A DNA stretch of 64,000 nt from Candidatus Bacteroides merdavium (GTDB lineage: Bacteria; Bacteroidota; Bacteroidia; Bacteroidales; Bacteroidaceae), in assembly GCA_019116805.1 (NCBI GenBank), contig DXAV01000041.1, forward strand, positions 1 through 64,000, in the 5' to 3' direction. A model generated the notes under the pieces. It saw only the letters and a program-made list of their open reading frames with translations, was not told the DNA's origin and ran no database searches. The position numbers were made by a program, and so were the translations under genes. Within the stretch, counting starts at the first letter, position 1. Each line of letters starts with the position of its first letter. Shown one piece after another: positions 47,588-61,234 of this stretch.

Positions 47588-47642
47588 AAAGATGATTTTA
47601 ATTATTCCATTTTTTAGTAACCAAAATCAGTACGAAAGTATG

Positions 47643-50600
47643 AAAAAGAAAACGACTTCTGGTCGGATGAAGGGATTTTTTACATCTCTTTATCTATTAA
47701 TTAGTGTTTTTTTATTGACAGGGGGTGCTTGGGCTCCTCTGCATGCTGCAGATACTCGTGGGAGTAGCAAGCAGGCTGTGACGACTACTCAAACGCTGAA
47801 GGAATTGTTCAGCTATATTGAGAAGAACAGCAATCTGGTCATTCTTTATTCGAAGGGCCTTTTGTCCGAGCTGGATAAAAAGGTTTCCATCAATATGAAT
47901 GGTAAGAAGGCTGAAGAAATCTTGAAGGAGTTGGCTGATGCTGCCAATCTGGAGATCAAGATCAGTGACCGGCAAGTGACGGTAATGAAAAAAGCTCCGA
48001 TTGTACAGCAAAGTAACAACATCAAGGTGACCGGACAGGTGTTCGATGATCTGGGCGAAACGGTTCCCGGTGCCAATGTGACGGTGAAAGGAAACACTTC
48101 CATCGGTACGGTGACCGACTTGGACGGTAACTTTACATTGGAAGTCCCCAAAGGAACTACTTTGGTGGTGTCTTTTATCGGATATGCCAATTATGAGTAT
48201 GTAGCACAAGGCACCGACAAGGTGACCATTAAACTGTCGCCCGATTCAGAAGCATTGGATGAAGTGGTTGTGGTAGGTTATGGTATGCAGCGCAAGAGCT
48301 CTATTACCGGTTCCATTTCTTCCATCAAGGCAGAAAAACTGAAAGATGTCACTACGCCGAGTGTAGCCAATATGTTGCAGGGTAAGGTGGCCGGTGCAGT
48401 GGTTGCCCCCACTTCCGGTCGTCCGGGCGAGGGTGTGAGCATCCGTGTGCGTGGTATCGGTTCAATTCGCGGTAATGTGGAGCCCTTGTGGGTAATCGAC
48501 GGTGTGGTAGGTGCTTCTTCTGCCGACCTGAACCCGAATGATATCGAAACCATTTCTATTTTGAAAGACGGTTCCGCTACGGCATTGTATGGTTCTCGTG
48601 GTGCGAACGGCGTTATTCAGGTAACTACCAAGCGTGCTACTACGGGTACGTCTCAGATTGATTTATCTGCCAAGTTTGGTGTGTCGCAGTTGCAGAAAGG
48701 TAACTTGGAGATGATGTCGGGTGCTGAATATTATGACTATGTACGTACGGCTTATGAGAACGCCGGAACGTTGGATTCTCAAGGCTGGCTGCAACCCTAT
48801 TTGCGCGACCGTAACTTCGACTGGTGGGACTTGGCTACTCAGAATGCCTTGACTCAGAACTATAACATCGGTTACCGTTATGGCAATGAAAAAATCAAGT
48901 CGTATGTATCCGGTGACTACTATACGGAAGAAGGTACCATCAAGGGATTTGATTACGACCGTTTCACGTTCCGTTCGAATACGGATTATATTGTGAATGA
49001 CCGCTTGACCTTGAAGGCAAAAGTGGCTGCAAGTTATAAAGAGACATTCAACCAGGAATATTCATTGGCGCATACCAGCTACACTCCGTGGGATACTCCT
49101 TGGGATTCTCAAGGCAATCTGAAGGACGGAAGTCAGGGCGTACCGACTGCAGATGCTGCTCCCACAGCCAACCCGGATGATTATTGGTATTCCGACGGTG
49201 GTTCAAACTTCTTGTATGACCGTGATTTGAGCTGGTCTAAGAGTCGTAATAACGGTATAGATTTGGGCGTCGGCTTTGATTTCAAGATTATCGAAGGATT
49301 GACTTTTGAGTCGAACAACCGTATTGGTTTCAATAATAGTTATTCCAGCTCTTATGTAGATCCCAACAGCCGTTCCGGTGCAGGTACCGACGGTTCTTAT
49401 TATGACGGTGAATCCAATACACGTTCTATCTATACCAGCCAGTTGCTGCGCTTCCTGAAAACGTTCGGTGAGAAGCACGAAATCAATGCCTATTTGGGTT
49501 ATGACTACGATGAATACCGTTATTGGGATTTGAGCGCTACGGCTTATAAGATTTTCTCGGGAGCCGAGATTATCAATGCGGGTGCCGAGGATCCTACAGC
49601 CAGTGGTACTAAATCGGAATCGAAGAATGCGGCAATTTACTTGAATGTCAACTATTCGTTCGATAGCAAGTATCTCATTCAAGGTATGATTCGTCGCGAC
49701 GGTTCTTCGAAGTTCGGTAGCGACAAGCGTTGGGCTACTTTCTGGTCGGTCGGTGCCGGCTGGAACATGCACAAGGAAGAGTTTATCAGCCAGTTCGAGT
49801 GGATCAATGAATTGAAGCCCCGTGTTTCTTACGGTATCAGCGGTAACCAGCCGGGCGGTGCTTACGAATGGGCTACCATCTTCGGTTACACTTCTCAGTA
49901 TGCCAACGAAATCGCATTCTTGTCCAACTATCAGGGAAATCCCGATTTGTCTTGGGAAGAGACGGCCAACTTTGACGCCGGTATTGATATCCGCCTGTTC
50001 GATCGTGTAAACATTACATTCGACTATTACCTGAAGAAGGTGAAGAACCTGATTTATCTCCGTCACCTGCCCGCCGTTACCGGTTTCAACCGCCAGACGG
50101 CCAACAACGGTAAGATGGAGAACTCGGGTGTGGAACTGACCATTACGCCTGAAATCATCCGTACCAAGGATTGGTACTGGGACATCAGCTTCAACATGGG
50201 TTATAACCGTAACGAAGTGACTTACCTGCCGGATGGTGATGACCTGACGATGCAGGCAGTGGCTGTGGGCTATCCCTATATGAACTGGTATATGAAGGAA
50301 TGGGCCGGTGTGGACACCATGACCGGAACTCCGTTGTGGTTCAAGGTTGACTCGGAAACGGGCGAAAAGACGGTGACGGGCAATTATAATGAGGCTACCA
50401 ACGTATTGCTGGATGCTTCTCCGACACCGAAAGTGAACGGTGGTTTGAGCACCAATCTCAGTTGGAAAGGCTTGTCGCTGAATGCTAACTTTACGTTTAG
50501 TGCCGGTGCCAAGATTTACAACGGTATGCGTGCCGGTGCACTTGACCGTGATGCAGAACGTCCTTCACAACCGGCTATGAAGTTGGCTGACGGCTGGAGC

Positions 50601-50936
50601 CGTTGGGAGAAACCGGGCGACATTGCCACGCATCCCCAGTTGAGAGCCGGTGGTAATAACGGAGCGTCCAACACTTCTACCCGCTATCTGGAGAATGGTG
50701 ACTATTTCAAACTGAAGTCGTTGACGCTTTCCTACAGCTTCCCCAAGAAGTGGCTGGAACCGTTGAAGATTAAAGGTGCTAACCTGAGTGTAGGTGGAGA
50801 AAACCTGTTTACCATTACCAAGTTCTCCGGTCAGGATCCAGAAATTCTGCTTTCTTCTTCCTACAACGGAAGTGCCAGTGGTTTTGGCTATCCTACCGTT
50901 AGACGTTTCACCGTAGGATTGAATGTTAACTTCTAA
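47643..50936 (+). CDS. SusC/RagA TonB-linked outer-membrane protein with N-terminal STN domain
   Basis: STN domain, carboxypeptidase-like domain, SILKDGSATALYGSRGANGVIQVTTK. Confidence 0.95.
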   Translation, partial: KKKTTSGRMKGFFTSLYLLISVFLLTGGAWAPLHAADTRGSSKQAVTTTQTLKELFSYIEKNSNLVILYSKGLLSELDKKVSINMNGKKAEEILKELADAANLEIKISDRQVTVMKKAPIVQQSNNIKVTGQVFDDLGETVPGANVTVKGNTSIGTVTDLDGNFTLEVPKGTTLVVSFIGYANYEYVAQGTDKVTIKLSPDSEALDEVVVVGYGMQRKSSITGSISSIKAEKLKDVTTPSVANMLQGKVAGAVVAPTSGRPGEGVSIRVRGIGSIRGNVEPLWVIDGVVGASSADLNPNDIETISILKDGSATALYGSRGANGVIQVTTKRATTGTSQIDLSAKFGVSQLQKGNLEMMSGAEYYDYVRTAYENAGTLDSQGWLQPYLRDRNFDWWDLATQNALTQNYNIGYRYGNEKIKSYVSGDYYTEEGTIKGFDYDRFTFRSNTDYIVNDRLTLKAKVAASYKETFNQEYSLAHTSYTPWDTPWDSQGNLKDGSQGVPTADAAPTANPDDYWYSDGGSNFLYDRDLSWSKSRNNGIDLGVGFDFKIIEGLTFESNNRIGFNNSYSSSYVDPNSRSGAGTDGSYYDGESNTRSIYTSQLLRFLKTFGEKHEINAYLGYDYDEYRYWDLSATAYKIFSGAEIINAGAEDPTASGTKSESKNAAIYLNVNYSFDSKYLIQGMIRRDGSSKFGSDKRWATFWSVGAGWNMHKEEFISQFEWINELKPRVSYGISGNQPGGAYEWATIFGYTSQYANEIAFLSNYQGNPDLSWEETANFDAGIDIRLFDRVNITFDYYLKKVKNLIYLRHLPAVTGFNRQTANNGKMENSGVELTITPEIIRTKDWYWDISFNMGYNRNEVTYLPDGDDLTMQAVAVGYPYMNWYMKEWAGVDTMTGTPLWFKVDSETGEKTVTGNYNEATNVLLDASPTPKVNGGLSTNLSWKGLSLNANFTFSAGAKIYNGMRAGALDRDAERPSQPAMKLADGWSRWEKPGDIATHPQLRAGGNNGASNTSTRYLENGDYFKLKSLTLSYSFPKKWLEPLKIKGANLSVGGENLFTITKFSGQDPEILLSSSYNGSASGFGYPTVRRFTVGLNVNF

Positions 50937-50963
50937 GTAATGATAACCAATAAGATAGAAACT

Positions 50964-52760
50964 ATGAAACTGAAATATACATTAGGTGCCTTGGCTGCTG
51001 TATTCTCATTGGCAAGTTGCAGCTTGGACGTAAATATGTACGATGGTGTAACGGGTGAGGACGTTACGGTTCGTAACATTGTGGAATTGTCGCAAGGCAG
51101 TTACAGCATGTTGAAATATGATGGTGGTTTGATTGATTACGGCTATTATTTTTGGACTTACGGAGGCGATGACCTCTCTTGGGGCGGTACGTCCACTGAC
51201 ACCAAGTTTGATATCTATGATTATAGCCGCAATATCACTAGTTCTGTTACAGAGTATGCTTGGGAATTGGGTTACCGTACCATCGGTAACTGTAATAAGG
51301 TGATTGAAATGGGAGCCGAGTTGGGTGAAAATCTGACTGCTGAGGAAAAGGTGATTGTCGGTGAGAACTATTATCTTCGTGCCTTGTGCTATTTCCTGTT
51401 GGTCAACGAGTTTGCGCAACCTTATTCCAACAATCCGACCCAGAACCCGGGTTTACCCCTGAAGCTGAACAGCGATCCTGATGATCTGCCCCAAAGCCGT
51501 TCTACAGTCGCCGAAATCTATGATCAGGTGGTGAAGGATTTGCAGGATGCCATTACTTACATGACATTGCCGGCTGGTCTGTCTCCTAAAAACAGTTGTT
51601 ATGCCACGAAGGAGGCTGCTGAAGCTTTGCTGGCCAGGGTATATCTCTATATGGAAAATTGGGAAGGTGCATGGGAAATGGCAAACAATGTCATTACTTC
51701 CGGCCGTTTTGAATTATTGCGTGGTGAAGAATATGCCATTTATTCCCAGCATGTTCCTGAAGAGAATTCTGAAACCATTTTTGCTGTACGCCGTACCAAA
51801 TTGAAAGATGATGGAGGCTATGGTAAGATGGGAGGTTTGTATATTCGTGTTGACAATAGTGGTTGGGAAGAAATGTACGCATCGGCTCCTTATTTGGAAT
51901 TGCTGGAACTCTATTTGGATGACAAGGGTTATCCTCAAGATTTGCGTAGTAATTTCATTACCAAGCGATATGTAGAAGATGGTACTAATACCGATATTTA
52001 TCCGATTACCGGTAACCCTGAACGTAATTATCAGGATTGGACATTTGCTTATACAGCGAAACAAAACAATACAGCAAATTACGAATATCGTCAGATTTCT
52101 GTTGAAAAACAGGCTGATGGAACATATGCTATGAGTGCAGAAGATGCTGCATCGTTCCGAAGTGCTACCATTCAGTCTGAACCTTATAACTTGGGTACCC
52201 GCTATTATGTGGTGGCATCGGACGGAACGAAGTATGTAGGACGTATTGAACCGCGAGTATATGATGCAAGAACACTTCGTCAGAAAGAGTCTATTTTCTT
52301 GGTATATGCCATTAACAAGTGTTCTTATCAGGAGCAATATTACCATCTGTGGTCTCCGATCATTTCCCGTTTGGCAGAAATGTACCTGATTCGTGCCGAG
52401 GCCAATCTGGAAAAGGGAGGTGATACGCAGGCTACGTTGGACGACGTGAATGTACTTCGTGAAAGAGCCGGTATCCCCGAGTGGACACTGGATAATATCA
52501 AGACTGCCGAATATGGCCAGCCGAAGGATATCCACAAGATTATTGAAGAAGAGCGTATGCTGGAGTTTGCTTGGGAAGGTCAACGTCGTTTCGACGTGTT
52601 CCGCTGGCGCCAGACGCTGGATCGCAAGTATCCGGGTGGTCATACATTGAGACAGGGTGACCGCTATCTGGAGATCCCTTACAATTCTCCTTCGGTATGC
52701 GAGTATATCCCGCAAGCGCAGTATGATGCTTATCCTTATGATTTGGGACAGAACCCCTGA
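50964..52760 (+). CDS. RagB/SusD family lipoprotein
   Basis: MKLKYTLGALAAVFSLASCSLD lipobox; EERMLEFAWEGQRRFDVFRW. Confidence 0.95.
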   Translation: MKLKYTLGALAAVFSLASCSLDVNMYDGVTGEDVTVRNIVELSQGSYSMLKYDGGLIDYGYYFWTYGGDDLSWGGTSTDTKFDIYDYSRNITSSVTEYAWELGYRTIGNCNKVIEMGAELGENLTAEEKVIVGENYYLRALCYFLLVNEFAQPYSNNPTQNPGLPLKLNSDPDDLPQSRSTVAEIYDQVVKDLQDAITYMTLPAGLSPKNSCYATKEAAEALLARVYLYMENWEGAWEMANNVITSGRFELLRGEEYAIYSQHVPEENSETIFAVRRTKLKDDGGYGKMGGLYIRVDNSGWEEMYASAPYLELLELYLDDKGYPQDLRSNFITKRYVEDGTNTDIYPITGNPERNYQDWTFAYTAKQNNTANYEYRQISVEKQADGTYAMSAEDAASFRSATIQSEPYNLGTRYYVVASDGTKYVGRIEPRVYDARTLRQKESIFLVYAINKCSYQEQYYHLWSPIISRLAEMYLIRAEANLEKGGDTQATLDDVNVLRERAGIPEWTLDNIKTAEYGQPKDIHKIIEEERMLEFAWEGQRRFDVFRWRQTLDRKYPGGHTLRQGDRYLEIPYNSPSVCEYIPQAQYDAYPYDLGQNP

Positions 52761-52866: not shown

Positions 52867-53724
52867 ATGAAAAAAATATCATATTTATTATTACTCCTTT
52901 TGGCGTTTGTGTATGCCGGATGTGCTGATACGGAGCAGCCTTATGTAGGCTATGTGATTATAGAACGTGCAGTGGTGGAGGCAGAAGCTAATTCGGTAGC
53001 TACCATTACAGCGGATACGGATATTGACTCGCCCATTGAAATCAAATCGATTGATTTTGGAGAAGGAGAAGCTGAATGGTGTACTATTACAACCAAAGGC
53101 AAGGAAATTACTGTGACCACTACGCAGGCTAATTCGGGTTCGAATTATCGTACGGCCACGGTCAATGTGAAATGCGGTTATTGGCTGAAGTCATTCCAGG
53201 TACTGCAGAAATATGCCGGACAGGAATACCTGCAATACGACTGGACACGTTGGACGGCTACCGGCAACAGTGTAGAAAGCAGTGATGGAGGTGGTTATCC
53301 GAGCTTGTTCAGCGATGATCGTTCCACATTCTGGCACAGCCAGTATAGCGGTGATGTTCCTTCTTTGCCTTATTGGATTGTAGTGGATATGCAAGAAGAA
53401 TTGGAGATTGCCAAGTTTGATATCGGCAGGAGATATTACGCAGGCAATGGTAATAATTACGGTTCAGTAAAGACTTTGAAGCTGTATGCCAGTACGGATA
53501 ATGAAAACTTCACGGAAGTCGGTGGCTTTACGTTTGAAATTCCCTGGACGGCTCCGGATGGAACAGTTGTAGAGAGCTTTACCAGTCCGCTGATTCCGGC
53601 TTATGAAGAAATCATTCTGGCAGAACCTGTGAAGGCACGTTACATGAAGATGGAAATCTTGGAAACTAATACAAGCAACAATGCGTGTCAGATCTCTTAT
53701 TTCAAAGCTTACGAAAAAATCTAA
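52867..53724 (+). CDS. Surface lipoprotein with BACON-like and F5/8 type C (discoidin) domains
   Basis: Lipobox YAGC; TFWHSQYSGDVPSLPYWIVVDMQEELEIAKFDIGRR. Confidence 0.82.
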   Translation: MKKISYLLLLLLAFVYAGCADTEQPYVGYVIIERAVVEAEANSVATITADTDIDSPIEIKSIDFGEGEAEWCTITTKGKEITVTTTQANSGSNYRTATVNVKCGYWLKSFQVLQKYAGQEYLQYDWTRWTATGNSVESSDGGGYPSLFSDDRSTFWHSQYSGDVPSLPYWIVVDMQEELEIAKFDIGRRYYAGNGNNYGSVKTLKLYASTDNENFTEVGGFTFEIPWTAPDGTVVESFTSPLIPAYEEIILAEPVKARYMKMEILETNTSNNACQISYFKAYEKI

Positions 53725-53830: not shown

Positions 53831-55627
53831 ATGAAAAAAACGATAGGAGCAGGAATGCTTTCATTATTTTTTAGCTGTTTGATGTCATTTCCCGTTTATG
53901 CTCAGGGCATGAAAGTTTATGATGTGGCCGACTATGGTTTGGAGGCGAACCGTTCGAAGGATGCCTCCGCCGTTTTACAGAAAATGTTGGAGAGGATTAG
54001 GACCGAGTGTGGAAACGGTGAGAATGTTGTGATACGTTTCCATGAAGGCGTTTATAATTTCTATGAAAAGGGAGCGGCAGTACGGGAATATTATATATCC
54101 AATCATGATCAGGACAATCCGAAACGGGTAGGGATTGCTTTGGAGGGTATGAAGGGGCTGACATTAGACGGAGGTGGTGCAGCTTTTGTCTTCCATGGCA
54201 GAATGTTGCCGATATCCCTGCTGCATTCCGAAAATTGTGTCTTGAAGGATTTCAGTATTGATTTTGTCAATCCGCATATTGCCCAGGTGGAGATTGTGAA
54301 GAACGACCCGCAAGGAGGAATAACCTTCCGCCCGGCTTCCTGGGTGAAATATCGTATTACCAAAGACAGTGTATTCGAAGCATACGGTGACGGTTGGACG
54401 GTGCGTCATAGCTGGGGCATTCCTTTTGAAAAGGATACCAAACGGATTGTCTATAATGCAGGTGATCGTGGATGCAATACTAGAGGAGCTTTTCTGGTGG
54501 AGAAAGGACTGATACAGGCTCCGCATTGGAAAGACGAGAAACTGACGCCGGGTACCATATTTGTCATGCGTGGTTGGGGACGTCCCACTCCAGGTATTTT
54601 CCTCTCACAGAATACCGATACGCGTCTGGAAAATATTCAGGTGCACTATGCTGAGGGTATGGGACTTTTGGCACAGCTCTGTGAAAATATTACCCTTGAA
54701 AAGTTTAATGTATGTCTGAAAGGAGATAATGATCCCCGTTACTTTACCACACAGGCAGATGCTACCCATTTTTCGGGCTGCAAAGGAAAAATTATTTCAC
54801 GTAATGGCTTGTATGAGGGGATGATGGACGATGCCATCAATGTACATGGTACTTACCTGAAAGTGATCGGTCGCCTGGATGACCGTACATTGGTAGGGCG
54901 TTATATGCATGACCAGTCCTGGGGCTTTGAATGGGGACGTGTAGGTGACGAAGTGCAGTTCATACGTTCGAGCACGATGGAACTGACAGGTTCGGTGAAT
55001 CATATTGCTTCCATCCGTGCGTATGATAAAGAAGATGTCGAGGGAGCTCGCGAGTTTCTCATCACTTTTGTGGAGCCTGTTCATGCGGACATTGACGAAA
55101 AAGGTGGCTTCGGCATTGAAAACCTGACCTGGTCTCCTGAAGTTGTATTCTCCGATAATCTGGTTCGTAATAACCGAGCCCGTGGTGCCTTGTTCAGTAC
55201 GCCGCGTCCGACGGTTGTAGAGAATAATACGTTTGACCATACATCCGGAACGGCCATTTTGCTTTGTGGTGATTGCAACGGATGGTTCGAAACGGGAGCT
55301 TGTCGTGACGTACAGATACGGAACAACCGTTTTATTAATGCTTTGACCAGTATGTACCAGTTTACCAATGCGGTGATTTCCATCTATCCGGAAATTCCTG
55401 AGCTGGAGAAACAGCAGTCCTACTTTCACGGAGGGAAAGAGGGTGGTATTGTGATAGAAAACAATGTGTTCGATACGTTTGACGCTCCCGTTTTGTATGC
55501 CAAGTCGGTGGATGGTCTTGTTTTTCGGAACAATACGATACGAACGAATACAGAATATCCACCTTTCCATTTCAACAGAAACCGTTTCTGGCTGGAAAGG
55601 GTTACTCGTATTGCTATCACGGAATGA
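53831..55627 (+). CDS. GH110 alpha-1,3-galactosidase-like beta-helix enzyme
   Basis: GH110-type N-terminus (YYISNHDQDNPKRVGIALEGMKGLTLDGGGAAFVFHGRMLPI) and beta-helix repeats. Confidence 0.87.
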   Translation: MKKTIGAGMLSLFFSCLMSFPVYAQGMKVYDVADYGLEANRSKDASAVLQKMLERIRTECGNGENVVIRFHEGVYNFYEKGAAVREYYISNHDQDNPKRVGIALEGMKGLTLDGGGAAFVFHGRMLPISLLHSENCVLKDFSIDFVNPHIAQVEIVKNDPQGGITFRPASWVKYRITKDSVFEAYGDGWTVRHSWGIPFEKDTKRIVYNAGDRGCNTRGAFLVEKGLIQAPHWKDEKLTPGTIFVMRGWGRPTPGIFLSQNTDTRLENIQVHYAEGMGLLAQLCENITLEKFNVCLKGDNDPRYFTTQADATHFSGCKGKIISRNGLYEGMMDDAINVHGTYLKVIGRLDDRTLVGRYMHDQSWGFEWGRVGDEVQFIRSSTMELTGSVNHIASIRAYDKEDVEGAREFLITFVEPVHADIDEKGGFGIENLTWSPEVVFSDNLVRNNRARGALFSTPRPTVVENNTFDHTSGTAILLCGDCNGWFETGACRDVQIRNNRFINALTSMYQFTNAVISIYPEIPELEKQQSYFHGGKEGGIVIENNVFDTFDAPVLYAKSVDGLVFRNNTIRTNTEYPPFHFNRNRFWLERVTRIAITE

Positions 55628-55672: not shown

Positions 55673-58600
55673 ATGAAGAACTTTTTTTTCAATCTTGAGC
55701 ACTGGAAGGCGATGCCTTTGGTTGTGGCCTTACTTATGGTATCTCCCCAGCAGAGGGCTCAAGCAGCATGTAATGAAAAAGACGGTCTTGAGGTTATGCA
55801 GCAGACCACAGGGATTGTGGAGGTAACCCAAATCAATCCGACTACTGTGGAGGTCCTTTTCACGGACAATCAACGCATGACACTCGATTTTTATGGAGAA
55901 AACATTTTCCGAATGTTTCAAGACAATGCCGGAGGTATCCTTCGTGATCCTCAGGCTGAACCGGAAGCCAAAATTCTGGTGAACCAACCGCGTAAGGCAG
56001 TAACAAAATTGACCTTGCAGGATGAAGCCGGGTTATTGTCTGTGGCTACGGGGAAAATCAAAGTCGTGTTTGACAAGAATACGGCATTGATGAAAGTATT
56101 CAATCAGGAGAACGGAAAGGCCGTAATGGAGGAAGTGTCTCCGATTTCGTTCGACAAGGAAACGGTTACACTGAAGCTGAAAGAGCAGGCAGATGAGTAT
56201 TTCTATGGCGGAGGTGTGCAGAACGGACGCTTTTCTCACAAGGGGCGTGCTATCGCCATTGAAAATCAGAACAGCTGGACGGACGGAGGCGTGGCATCGC
56301 CCAATCCTTTCTATTGGTCCACAAACGGTTATGCTATCATGTGGCATACGTTCAAGAAAGGTGTCTATGATTTTGGGCGTGAAGAGGCAGGCGTTGTCAA
56401 GCTGTCCCACCAAACGGATTATCTGGACCTCTTCGTGATGGTCAATGAAGGGGCTGTTCCTTTGCTGAACGATTTCTATCAACTGACAGGAAATCCCGTC
56501 CTGATACCGAAGTTCGGTTTCTATCAGGGACATCTGAACGCTTATAACCGCGACTATTGGAAGGAAGATGAGAACGGTATCCTGTTTGAAGACGGGAAGC
56601 GCTATAAAGAAAGCCAGAAAGACAATGGAGGAATCAAAGAGTCGTTGAACGGTGAAAAGAATAATTATCAGTTCTCGGCTCGGGCGGTAATCGACCGATA
56701 TAAGAGCCATGATATGCCGCTGGGCTGGTTGCTCCCGAATGACGGTTACGGTGCTGGTTACGGACAGACCGGGACGCTGGACGGCAATATCCAGAACTTG
56801 AAGAGTCTGACGGACTATGCCCATGAGAATGGGGTGGAAATCGGCCTTTGGACTCAATCCGATCTGCATCCGAAGGAAGGTGTGGAGGCCTTGCTCCAAC
56901 GTGATATTGTAAAGGAAGTGCGAGACGCAGGCGTGCGTGTGCTGAAGACGGATGTCGCTTGGGTGGGTGCCGGTTATTCATTCGGATTGAACGGTATTGC
57001 GGATGTGGCACAAATCATGCCGTACTATGGTAATAACGCCCGTCCTTTTATCATCAGTCTGGACGGTTGGGCCGGTACTCAACGTTATGCAGGTATCTGG
57101 TCGGGTGATCAGACGGGTGGTAACTGGGAGTACATCCGTTTCCACATTCCGACTTATATCGGTTCAGGTCTTTCGGGTAATCCCAATATCTCTTCGGACA
57201 TGGACGGAATTTTCGGTGGCAAGAATTTAGCCGTAAATACCCGTGATTTCCAGTGGAAGACTTTTACGCCCATGCAACTGAACATGGACGGATGGGGTGC
57301 CAATGAAAAATATCCGCATGCTTTGGGTGAACCTGCTACTTCTATCAACCGCTGGTATCTGAAACTGAAGTCGGAAATTATGCCGTATGCATATAGCATT
57401 GCTCATGAATCAGTGGACGGTTTGCCTATGATCCGTGCCATGTTTCTTGAATATCCCAATGCCTATACGTTGGGTAAGGCTACCCAGTATCAATATTTGT
57501 ATGGCCCTTACTTCCTTGTAGCACCGATTTATCAGGCTACAAAAGCTGATGAACAGGGAAACGACGTCCGCAATGGCATTTATTTGCCCGAGGGGGAATG
57601 GGTGGATTACTTTTCTGGTGATGTTTATCAGGGTGGTTGCATTATCAACAACTTTGCTTCGCCGCTTTGGAAGCTGCCCGTGTTTGTGAAGAGAGGAGCC
57701 ATTATACCGATGGTGAATCCGAACAACAATGTACATGAAATAGATCAGCATCTGCGTATCTATGAGTTGTATCCTTATGGTTATTCTTCGTTTACGGAAT
57801 ATGACGACGACGGTGTGTCGGAAGAATATCGTTTGGGCAAATTCGCAACTACGTTGATAGAGTCTGAAGTGAACGAGAAAGGTGATCTCTTGGTAACGGT
57901 TCATCCTGCACAGGGCGATTTCGACGGTTTTGTCAAAGAGAAGGTGACTGAGTTCAGAATTAATGTGACTGAGAAACCAAAGAAAGTTGTGGCCAGTGCT
58001 GGCAAAGATAAAATCAAACTGACGGAAGTTACTTCGTTGGAAGCATTCCAGGCTGGGGAGAATGTCTATTTCTATCACCAGGCTCCCAACTTGAACCGGT
58101 TTGCGACGCCGGGTAGTGAATTCGCCAAGGAAGTAATCACAAAGAACCCGCAACTGTTGGTAAAACTGGCCGCTTCGGATATTACCGTTGCTCCTACAAC
58201 CTTGAAGGTGAAGGGCTTTGTTTTTGCTCCTGCTGACAAATATCGTATTTCGACAGGTGCTTTGTCTGTTCCTCAGCCGAACATTTCCGAGGAGAATACA
58301 GAAGCCTATACGCTGAAACCTACATGGGATAAAGTGCCCAATGCTGATTTCTATGAGATTGAGTTTGACGGTATGCTTTATACAACTATCCAAGAAACGG
58401 AATTGTTGTTCGAGGGGTTGAAGGCAGAAACTGCTTATTCCTTTAAGGTGCGTGCTGTGAATAAAGATGGTGTGTCTGATTGGGCTGAATGTAGTGCCGT
58501 GACGAAGCAGAATCCTTTGGAATTTGCGATTACTGGTATTATGGGTGAAACCTCTGTACCCAACCAGGGTGGCTCTATCAGGAAGCTGTTTGATTTTGAA

Positions 58601-59533
58601 GAAGGTGAGTTGTGGCATACGCAATATGGAGCGAAAGCTGTACCGTTTGATTTGGTTATCGATTTGAAATCCATCAATCAGATTGAAAAACTTCACTATT
58701 TGCCTCGTGACAATGCGGGTAACGGAACCCTGCTGAAGGGAACAATCTACTACAGTATGGATAAGGAGAAGTGGACGGAAGCAGGAACCTTCGACTGGAA
58801 ACGCGATAACGAGACGAAGATCTTTGCCTTCGATCAGAAGCCGACCGTACGTTATATCAAGATGAGTGTAACCGAAGCAGTAGGTGACTATGGTTCAGGG
58901 CGCGAGATTTATGTGTTCAAGGTGCCGGGTACGGAAAGCTACCTGCCGGGCGACATCAACAACGACAAGAAGATTGATGAAAATGACCTGACCTCGTACA
59001 CCAACTATACAGGTTTGCGAAGAGGTGACTCCGACTTTGAGGGTTACATTAGCCGTGGTGACTTGAACGGTAATGATTTGATTGACGCTTACGATATTTC
59101 TGCGGTAGCTACCTGCCTGGAGGGTGGTGCTCACAGCAGGAATGTGGAGAAGGTAGAAGGCAATATCAGTTTGACAACTGCCAAACGTTCTTACGCCAAG
59201 GATGAGATTGTCGAGGTGCAGGTGAAAGGTGTCGGCCTGAAAGCTGTCAATGCTTTGAGCTTTGCCTTGCCTTACAATCCTGCCGATTATGAATTTGTGG
59301 GTGTAGAAGTTGGAGCTGTCAAAGAAATGTATAACATGACTAACGACCGTCTGCATACCAGTGGTGAGAAAGCCCTTTATCCGACCTTCGTCAACTTGGG
59401 TGACCGAGGCACGTTGGAAGGAGATTGCGACCTGTTTGTCATCAAGCTGAAAGCGAATCGTAATGTCAGGTTTGATTTGCAGGCAAAAGACGGCTTTTTG
59501 GTTAACAAGCGAATGGAAGTCAGAAAGTTCTGA
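55673..59533 (+). CDS. Multidomain GH31 glycosidase with FN3, discoidin, dockerin and cohesin-like domains
   Basis: VRVLKTDVAWVGAGYSFGLNG nucleophile region; WSGDQTGGNWEYIRFHIPTYIGSGLSG; GDINNDKKIDENDL and GDLNGNDLIDAYDI Ca-binding loops. Confidence 0.88.
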   Translation: MKNFFFNLEHWKAMPLVVALLMVSPQQRAQAACNEKDGLEVMQQTTGIVEVTQINPTTVEVLFTDNQRMTLDFYGENIFRMFQDNAGGILRDPQAEPEAKILVNQPRKAVTKLTLQDEAGLLSVATGKIKVVFDKNTALMKVFNQENGKAVMEEVSPISFDKETVTLKLKEQADEYFYGGGVQNGRFSHKGRAIAIENQNSWTDGGVASPNPFYWSTNGYAIMWHTFKKGVYDFGREEAGVVKLSHQTDYLDLFVMVNEGAVPLLNDFYQLTGNPVLIPKFGFYQGHLNAYNRDYWKEDENGILFEDGKRYKESQKDNGGIKESLNGEKNNYQFSARAVIDRYKSHDMPLGWLLPNDGYGAGYGQTGTLDGNIQNLKSLTDYAHENGVEIGLWTQSDLHPKEGVEALLQRDIVKEVRDAGVRVLKTDVAWVGAGYSFGLNGIADVAQIMPYYGNNARPFIISLDGWAGTQRYAGIWSGDQTGGNWEYIRFHIPTYIGSGLSGNPNISSDMDGIFGGKNLAVNTRDFQWKTFTPMQLNMDGWGANEKYPHALGEPATSINRWYLKLKSEIMPYAYSIAHESVDGLPMIRAMFLEYPNAYTLGKATQYQYLYGPYFLVAPIYQATKADEQGNDVRNGIYLPEGEWVDYFSGDVYQGGCIINNFASPLWKLPVFVKRGAIIPMVNPNNNVHEIDQHLRIYELYPYGYSSFTEYDDDGVSEEYRLGKFATTLIESEVNEKGDLLVTVHPAQGDFDGFVKEKVTEFRINVTEKPKKVVASAGKDKIKLTEVTSLEAFQAGENVYFYHQAPNLNRFATPGSEFAKEVITKNPQLLVKLAASDITVAPTTLKVKGFVFAPADKYRISTGALSVPQPNISEENTEAYTLKPTWDKVPNADFYEIEFDGMLYTTIQETELLFEGLKAETAYSFKVRAVNKDGVSDWAECSAVTKQNPLEFAITGIMGETSVPNQGGSIRKLFDFEEGELWHTQYGAKAVPFDLVIDLKSINQIEKLHYLPRDNAGNGTLLKGTIYYSMDKEKWTEAGTFDWKRDNETKIFAFDQKPTVRYIKMSVTEAVGDYGSGREIYVFKVPGTESYLPGDINNDKKIDENDLTSYTNYTGLRRGDSDFEGYISRGDLNGNDLIDAYDISAVATCLEGGAHSRNVEKVEGNISLTTAKRSYAKDEIVEVQVKGVGLKAVNALSFALPYNPADYEFVGVEVGAVKEMYNMTNDRLHTSGEKALYPTFVNLGDRGTLEGDCDLFVIKLKANRNVRFDLQAKDGFLVNKRMEVRKF

Positions 59534-59683: not shown

Positions 59684-61234
59684 ATGAAAAAAATTGGAAC
59701 ATTTGTGTTGGCCATGTGCCTGGTAGTGTTGGGTGCATGCTCTACACAGACATCCTCTACCGTTCAGACGAACGATAAGGGAACCCAGTGGGAATGGAAG
59801 AACGGTACCATTGTAGTAAAGACTCCCGAACGTCCTGCCGGACAGCAGAGTGTCTTGGGGTTGACTACTCCGAAGATGGAAGTGGTACGTGTAGGATTTG
59901 TAGGTTTGGGTATGCGCGGTCCGGGTGCCGTAGCCCGTTTCACTTATATCCCCGGTACTCAGATTGTAGCCCTTTGCGACTATGAACAAAAACGTGCCGA
60001 GGCTTGTCAGCAGATACTGAAGAAAGCTTCTCTGCCGAAGGCTGCCATCTATTCAGGTGCCAATGGTTACGAGGAACTCTGCAAACGCGATGATATTGAC
60101 TTGGTTTATATTGCTGCCGACTGGCTGCATCACTTCCCCATCGCCAAGTGTGCATTGGAAAATGGTAAGAACGTGGCTATCGAAGTGCCTTCGGCCATGA
60201 ACTTGAAAGAATGCTGGGAGCTGATCAACCTGAGTGAAAAAACTCGTAAGCACTGTATGATTTTGGAGAACTGCTGCTACGACTGGTTCGAAATGAATAC
60301 CTTGAACATGGCTCAGAACGGTGTGTTCGGTGAAGTAATCCGTGCACAGGGTGCTTATATCCATAACTTGAGCGAGTTCTGGGATTACTATTGGAAGAAC
60401 GGCGAAGGCGACAAGCTGGGCTGGCGTCTGGACTACAACATGCGTCATCGTGGTGACGTATATGCCACTCACGGTCTTGGCCCTGTTGCACAGGCGCTTG
60501 ACATCCACCGTGGTGACCGTATGACTACGCTCGTGGCTATGGATACCAAGTCGGTTATCGGTAAGGCATTGGTTGAGGAAAGAACTGACTCTACTTGCAA
60601 TAATTTCCGTAACGGTGACCATACTACGACATTGATTCGCACTGCCAACGGTAAGGTGATTGAAATCCAGCATAATGTAATGACTCCGCAACCTTACAAC
60701 CGTCTGTATCAGTTGACGGGTACCAAAGGTTTTGCCAATAAGTATCCGGTAGAAGGTTATGCTCTTGATGCTGCTCAGTTGAGCGCTTCGGGTGTACAAC
60801 CTAAAGTTGACGACCTGAGCTCACACGGTTTCATGTCCGATGCCGATATGAAGGCTTTGGTAGAGAAATATCAGCACCCCATCCTGAAGAAGTATGGCGA
60901 AATGGCCAAGGAAGTAGGTGGTCACGGTGGTATGGACTTCATCATGGATAGCCGTCTGGTTTATTGCTTGCAGAATGGTCTGCCTCTGGATATGGACGTA
61001 TATGACCTGGCCGAGTGGTGCTGTCTGGCCGAGTTGGGTGAACTGTCTATGGACAATGGTTGCGCAGCTGTTGAATTCCCCGACTTCACTCGCGGCGAAT
61101 GGAATGTAGTGAAAGGTTACAAGCACGCTTATGCAAGCCCTGAAGAAGAGAAGGTTAGCATGGAGAAGGCTAAAGCTTTCACTGCCAAGTTGAAAGAACA
61201 AGGTGCAAAAGAATGGGCGGCAGAAGGTAAATAA
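59684..61234 (+). CDS. GH109-like NAD-dependent glycosidase / Gfo-Idh-MocA family lipoprotein
   Basis: Lipobox LGAC; VRVGFVGLGMRGPGAVARF Rossmann motif; YATHGLGPVAQALDIHRGDRM. Confidence 0.85.
   Translation: MKKIGTFVLAMCLVVLGACSTQTSSTVQTNDKGTQWEWKNGTIVVKTPERPAGQQSVLGLTTPKMEVVRVGFVGLGMRGPGAVARFTYIPGTQIVALCDYEQKRAEACQQILKKASLPKAAIYSGANGYEELCKRDDIDLVYIAADWLHHFPIAKCALENGKNVAIEVPSAMNLKECWELINLSEKTRKHCMILENCCYDWFEMNTLNMAQNGVFGEVIRAQGAYIHNLSEFWDYYWKNGEGDKLGWRLDYNMRHRGDVYATHGLGPVAQALDIHRGDRMTTLVAMDTKSVIGKALVEERTDSTCNNFRNGDHTTTLIRTANGKVIEIQHNVMTPQPYNRLYQLTGTKGFANKYPVEGYALDAAQLSASGVQPKVDDLSSHGFMSDADMKALVEKYQHPILKKYGEMAKEVGGHGGMDFIMDSRLVYCLQNGLPLDMDVYDLAEWCCLAELGELSMDNGCAAVEFPDFTRGEWNVVKGYKHAYASPEEEKVSMEKAKAFTAKLKEQGAKEWAAEGK

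Follow-up and report, generated by a model that had tools for sequence, protein, structure and literature searches.

Gene Content of the Locus

The window, a stretch of 64,000 nt covering positions 1 to 64,000 of contig DXAV01000041.1 of Candidatus Bacteroides merdavium (assembly GCA_019116805.1), contains the following genes, each given with the evidence for its assignment:

47592..50936, + strand: SusC-like TonB-dependent transporter (ORF translation, typical SusC plug motifs)
50940..52760, + strand: SusD-like lipoprotein (ORF translation and position after SusC)
52867..53724, + strand: BACON and F5/8C lipoprotein, likely a surface glycan-binding protein (Pfam)
53831..55627, + strand: GH110-type alpha-galactosidase (Pfam GLAA-B barrel domains and beta helix)
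55673..59533, + strand: GH31 subfamily-18-type enzyme, predicted alpha-N-acetylgalactosaminidase, 1286 aa (ORF, Pfam GH31 domains, PDB matches)
59684..61234, + strand: GH109-type alpha-N-acetylgalactosaminidase (Pfam Glyco_hydro_109_C)

A porin gene was also detected by Pfam among the neighbours of the GH31 gene, and an ECF-type sigma factor and FecR are encoded upstream of the locus. The SusC/SusD-like pair, recognised from its sequence, together with the GH110, GH31 and GH109 enzymes assigned by Pfam, identifies the region as a polysaccharide utilisation locus. The enzyme families suggest that it handles alpha-Gal and alpha-GalNAc on mucin-type glycans. With GH31 flanked by GH110 and GH109, the locus appears geared to mucin sugars of the blood-group B/A and Tn types. 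The nearest relative among the best 80 of 459 relatives found in named genomes, Caecibacteroides pullorum, has the BACON-F5/8C, GH110, GH109 and porin genes in common with the locus described here. In strain AN421 of this species, the nearest GH31 homologue is only 947 aa long in frame, which suggests that a frameshift, a stop or an error in the assembly lies upstream (L036).

Domain Architecture of the GH31 Protein

The modules of the GH31 protein follow in the order signal peptide, GH31, FN3, F5/8C (CBM32-like), dockerin and cohesin. The parts preceding the C-terminal tail are:

55673..55765, + strand: signal peptide, probably of signal peptidase I type, without lipobox (MKNFFFNLEHWKAMPLVVALLMVSPQQRAQA preceding AC; homologue N-termini)
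55877..57967, + strand: GH31 catalytic region, comprising mutarotase-like N-domain, barrel, C-domain and DUF5110
58280..58489, + strand: fibronectin type III domain (Pfam fn3, residues 870-939)
58511..58918, + strand: F5/8 type C (CBM32-like) domain (Pfam PF00754, residues 964-1076)

Judged by its sequence, ORF 55673-59533 belongs to GH31 subfamily 18 (GH31_18), and alpha-N-acetylgalactosaminidase activity is predicted for its product. The closest solved relative is the Enterococcus faecalis GH31 alpha-N-acetylgalactosaminidase (PDB 6m76/7f7r, E about 1e-285), with which an end-to-end alignment spans the catalytic region through FN3 and the catalytic Asp is conserved. D427 was assigned as the nucleophile from its alignment with the residue that 7f7r and 7f7q have mutated (to N or A), and D479, within the conserved SGDQTGG motif, is likely the acid/base. 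CBM32-type modules in the PDB matched residues 947-1079.

The N-terminus resembles a signal-peptidase-I signal, and a lipobox was absent from this protein as well as from 70 of 71 homologues. The surface location named in the first-pass annotation was thus not borne out, and the GH31 protein is more likely periplasmic; the related B. thetaiotaomicron enzyme BT3169 is likewise placed in the periplasm in the model presented in PMC11992087.

The Dockerin and Cohesin Modules

The first-pass annotation had described two dockerin-type calcium loops and a cohesin-like stretch at the end of the enzyme. Both were recovered in frame, after the FN3 and discoidin (F5/8C) domains, and the tail is composed as follows:

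58946..59128, + strand: type I dockerin, residues 1092-1152 (approximate; Pfam), the most conserved module
58952..58987, + strand: calcium loop 1, DINNDKKIDEND (ligands D5, N7, D9 and D16 in tail numbering, 100% conserved in 157 homologues)
59060..59095, + strand: calcium loop 2, DLNGNDLIDAYD (ligands D41, N43, N45 and D52 in tail numbering, 97-100% conserved in 157 homologues)
59120..59158, + strand: spacer of about 13 residues (length 12-14 in 152 of 157 homologues, sequence free)
59159..59530, + strand: cohesin-fold domain, residues 1163-1286 (Pfam in 58 of 77 tails; AF2 and Foldseek)

The Pfam profile Dockerin_1 (PF00404) scored 25.6 bits on the tail alone and 21.2 bits on the full protein, against a cut-off of 22.9, and matched all 77 tails (that of the GH31 protein and those of its relatives) at E <= 0.01. 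Both loops are canonical F-hands (D-x-[DN]-x-[DN]...D), with helices spanning tail residues 14-23 and 50-59. With every calcium ligand retained in at least 97% of the 157 homologues, the observation goes far beyond chance. Mean pairwise identity was 84% for the dockerin versus 77% for the catalytic region.

The cohesin was less readily recognised. The Pfam profile Cohesin (PF00963) scored 17.8 bits for the GH31 protein, below its cut-off of 24.1, and the identity of the module is therefore uncertain from sequence alone; the tails of relatives reach 39 bits, and 58 of the 77 matched at E <= 0.01 (best 2.7e-8). Searching the PDB by sequence with the tail, either as a single sequence or as a 77-row profile, returned weak dockerin matches and no cohesin. 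The check by AlphaFold and Foldseek of residues ~1090-1286, proposed alongside the original description, recovered the cohesin fold. The AF2 model of the 197-aa tail, built from the 77-row alignment, reached pLDDT 95 and pTM 0.90, and all 48 Foldseek matches in the PDB at E <= 0.001 were cohesins. The first- and third-ranked matches, 2jh2 (cohesin-like) and 2vo8, are noncellulosomal modules of Clostridium perfringens. The model thus supports a cohesin with a nine-strand jelly-roll fold at the end of the tail.

Distribution of the Tail among Relatives

A GH31_18 catalytic region was detected in 76 of 251 Bacteroidaceae genomes, and the full tail was present in all 76. The sole additional tail (G244) belongs to a frame shortened to 715 aa, close to a contig start. 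Scanning named genomes yielded 459 relatives; the best 80 of the 459 all had a GH31_18 match in the same locus and spanned Bacteroides, Parabacteroides, Dysgonomonas, Odoribacter, Pedobacter, Mucilaginibacter, Sphingobacterium and Elizabethkingia. The only full relative in a plasmid search was from Phocaeicola massiliensis. Given this co-occurrence in 76 of 76 genomes and across the listed genera, the tail is a standard part of GH31_18 in the phylum rather than a local curiosity. A literature search, conducted largely without subscription papers, found no description of a strict linkage of dockerin and cohesin to GH31_18 across Bacteroidota.

The same conservation bears on the idea that the tail is a functionless relic retained by descent. 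Nothing speaks for this directly; a related GH31_18 from Hoskinsella has neither dockerin nor cohesin reported (PMC13096917), so that activity would not need the tail. Against it stand calcium ligands at least 97% conserved, a dockerin 84% identical across the phylum and not one loss in 76 genomes, which bring the relic reading close to refuted.

Partner Modules Elsewhere in the Genomes

A profile search of the genome itself (85.6% complete) revealed no other genuine dockerin or cohesin. The other dockerin matches fell in two SusC-like proteins, where the loop is of DxxGDG type, and the other cohesin match was a lipoprotein adjoining a SusD-like gene; all were rejected as chance. Across 12 relatives with a completeness of 90% or more, including three single-contig genomes, cohesin matches and full-length dockerin matches were confined to the GH31 protein. 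Three extra dockerin matches in these genomes cover just half of the module (about 30 of 57 positions) and fall in other ORFs, 883-1130 aa long. The search for further modules suggested by the first-pass annotation thus came back empty in the genome itself and in all 12 relatives, with the limit that divergent cohesins elsewhere could be missed, since Pfam missed the tail's own cohesin in five of the 12. Neither the genome itself nor the 12 near-complete relatives showed a scaffoldin or repeated cohesins on other proteins, as a cellulosome-type system would have.

These results weigh on a cellulosome-like, heterotypic assembly, in which the tail would link the GH31 enzyme to others that bear a dockerin or a cohesin. 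Such pairing has a precedent in the mucin-active enzymes of C. perfringens, which pair in trans (PMC12997984), and some Bacteroidaceae genera are dockerin-rich, with 11-36 dockerin and 0-3 cohesin matches per genome (G096, G030, G110, G115, G068 and G102). The no-partner argument is accordingly limited to the genomes tested, and genera combining 11-36 dockerins with 1-3 cohesins lend the idea some weight. However, no partner was seen in the genome itself or in the 12 near-complete, tail-bearing relatives, and the cohesin of the C. perfringens GH31 enzyme bound none of the dockerins tested by ELISA (PMC12997984). The absence of a lipobox or other surface signal and the treatment of BT3169 as periplasmic also make assembly with other surface enzymes, as had been suggested, unlikely. 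Overall, we consider heterotypic assembly very improbable.

Single-chain cohesin-dockerin pairs, as predicted from reading frames, recur outside GH31. Other ORFs, of 447-1492 aa, have a cohesin with a dockerin immediately after it in one chain (L128, L129, G010:C6:118123-118695, G068:C1:3573-4166 and G086:C59:14084-14674). Separately, four Bacteroidaceae ORFs of about 2340-2740 aa contain a cohesin, in some with CARDB or DUF5006 alongside (L120, L122, L123 and L126), and one cohesin is fused to a CotH kinase domain (L127, 1276-3339, - strand).

Arrangement and Proposed Binding of the Two Modules

A pTM of 0.90 is high for two domains and points confidently to one defined relative arrangement of dockerin and cohesin in the model, although pTM is silent on which surfaces touch. 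A longer AF2 model, from FN3 to cohesin, had a pTM of 0.77, so the placement of the tail relative to the CBM32 domain and the rest of the enzyme is less certain. The length of the spacer is nearly fixed, although one relative has 29 residues.

We slightly favour, at a little better than an even chance for the whole explanation, an intrachain complex of the C-terminal dockerin with the cohesin next to it. The dockerin would be folded by two calcium ions, as the conserved ligands suggest, and the short spacer of fixed length would let it lie against its own cohesin. The GH31_18 alpha-N-acetylgalactosaminidase would thereby end, after FN3 and CBM32, in a rigid unit that depends on calcium. Since each module would occupy the other, the pair would stabilise or cap the end of the enzyme and recruit no other enzymes. 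The classical cohesin-dockerin interface, the calcium dependence and the stabilising role are what we infer. Because the relatives keep exactly one dockerin and one cohesin, both on this protein, the most likely role of the pair is internal, holding its own enzyme together instead of connecting it to others. Binding in cis is favoured by the confident two-domain model, the near-fixed spacer length with free sequence and the single-copy partners. Among the three roles offered by the first-pass annotation, self-capping is therefore the best supported, oligomers of the same enzyme are possible and assembly with other enzymes did not hold up.

Single-copy modules would also fit homotypic binding in trans, in which the dockerin of one copy would bind the cohesin of another, giving domain-swap dimers or head-to-tail chains. 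As both modules reside in the same protein, binding in trans could only involve another copy of that enzyme; the recognition surfaces are conserved, and the coupling data are silent on cis versus trans. Nevertheless, the AF2 monomer already adopts one confident arrangement, the short fixed spacer favours cis, and with equal surfaces, cis binding would win through local concentration. We therefore regard trans binding as unlikely, if worth keeping in mind. Similarly doubtful is the broader proposal that the pair is fixed across Bacteroidota as a homotypic device forming calcium-dependent GH31_18 dimers or chains in the periplasm.

The conservation of the cohesin surface is uneven. Mean entropy of outward residues was 0.53 on the sheet that bears the dockerin site in known cohesins versus 1.39 on the other sheet, the assignment of residues to sheets being approximate (strand alternation on the model's DSSP and the general architecture of the type I complex). 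We take the conserved sheet to be the dockerin-binding sheet of known type I cohesins. The cohesin has an unusually strong invariant patch: R137, H139, K144, Y147, T149 and N152 (tail numbering). On the dockerin, the conserved faces outnumber those needed by one contact.

The strength of this patch and the extra conserved dockerin faces would also suit a side-by-side, non-classical packing that leaves the conserved cohesin sheet free for another ligand, e.g., mucin or the catalytic domain of the same enzyme. Direct coupling analysis of 157 tails (76-118 effective sequences) yielded dockerin-cohesin pairs for 17 of the top 50, no enrichment over the 42% expected by chance and a point against the preferred self-bound pair. 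The top pair, A55-M192 (tail numbering), lies near the cohesin C-terminus and could reflect packing at that end rather than at the classical face; together with V72-R195, it brings helix 3 of the dockerin close to the ends of the cohesin. At this number of effective sequences the coupling data are weak, and the coincidence of the conserved sheet with the dockerin site of known cohesins is the simpler reading, which leaves non-classical packing rather improbable and binding of the dockerin to its own cohesin the preferred interpretation.

Comparison with Known Systems

The E. faecalis GH31_18 enzyme (PDB 6m76, 7f7q and 7f7r) shares the nucleophile and can be aligned through FN3, where its solved construct stops; unlike the GH31 protein described here, it is annotated as an LPXTG cell-wall-anchored protein. 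The Bacteroides GH31 alpha-N-acetylgalactosaminidases BT3169 and its B. caccae counterpart very probably belong to the same enzyme group. According to PMC11992087, which cites Rahfeld et al., they act on the core GalNAc of mucin glycoproteins and are located in the periplasm; the paper makes no mention of a dockerin or cohesin for either enzyme.

Cellulosomal pairs (e.g., 1ohz and 2vn5) have the same cohesin fold and two-loop dockerin as the GH31 tail. They differ in joining separate chains via multi-cohesin scaffoldins, whereas the GH31 tail has both modules in one chain with no scaffoldin visible. The co-presence of the two modules in Bacteroidetes MAGs has been called surprising (PMC12997984). 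In our Bacteroidaceae survey, the GH31 tail carried an above-cut-off cohesin match in 11 of the 23 genomes having one. At least part of the co-presence is thus probably the GH31_18 enzyme, and both modules in one genome need not mean a cellulosome.

The closest parallel by description is the GH31 enzyme of C. perfringens ATCC 13124, which carries a cohesin (X82) and a dockerin in one chain (PMC12997984). Like the enzyme described here, it comes from a mucin degrader and has one cohesin and one dockerin. AF3 pairs its cohesin both with its own dockerin and with that of a GH2 enzyme (PMC12997984); together with the negative ELISA, this counts in favour of a self-bound pair in the enzyme described here. 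C. perfringens, however, is a Firmicute whose genome encodes other dockerin- and cohesin-bearing enzymes, so that trans partners exist there. The tail of the GH31 protein described here provides a naturally occurring cohesin-dockerin pair in a single chain, carried by a group of enzymes acting on mucin O-glycans, which they trim.
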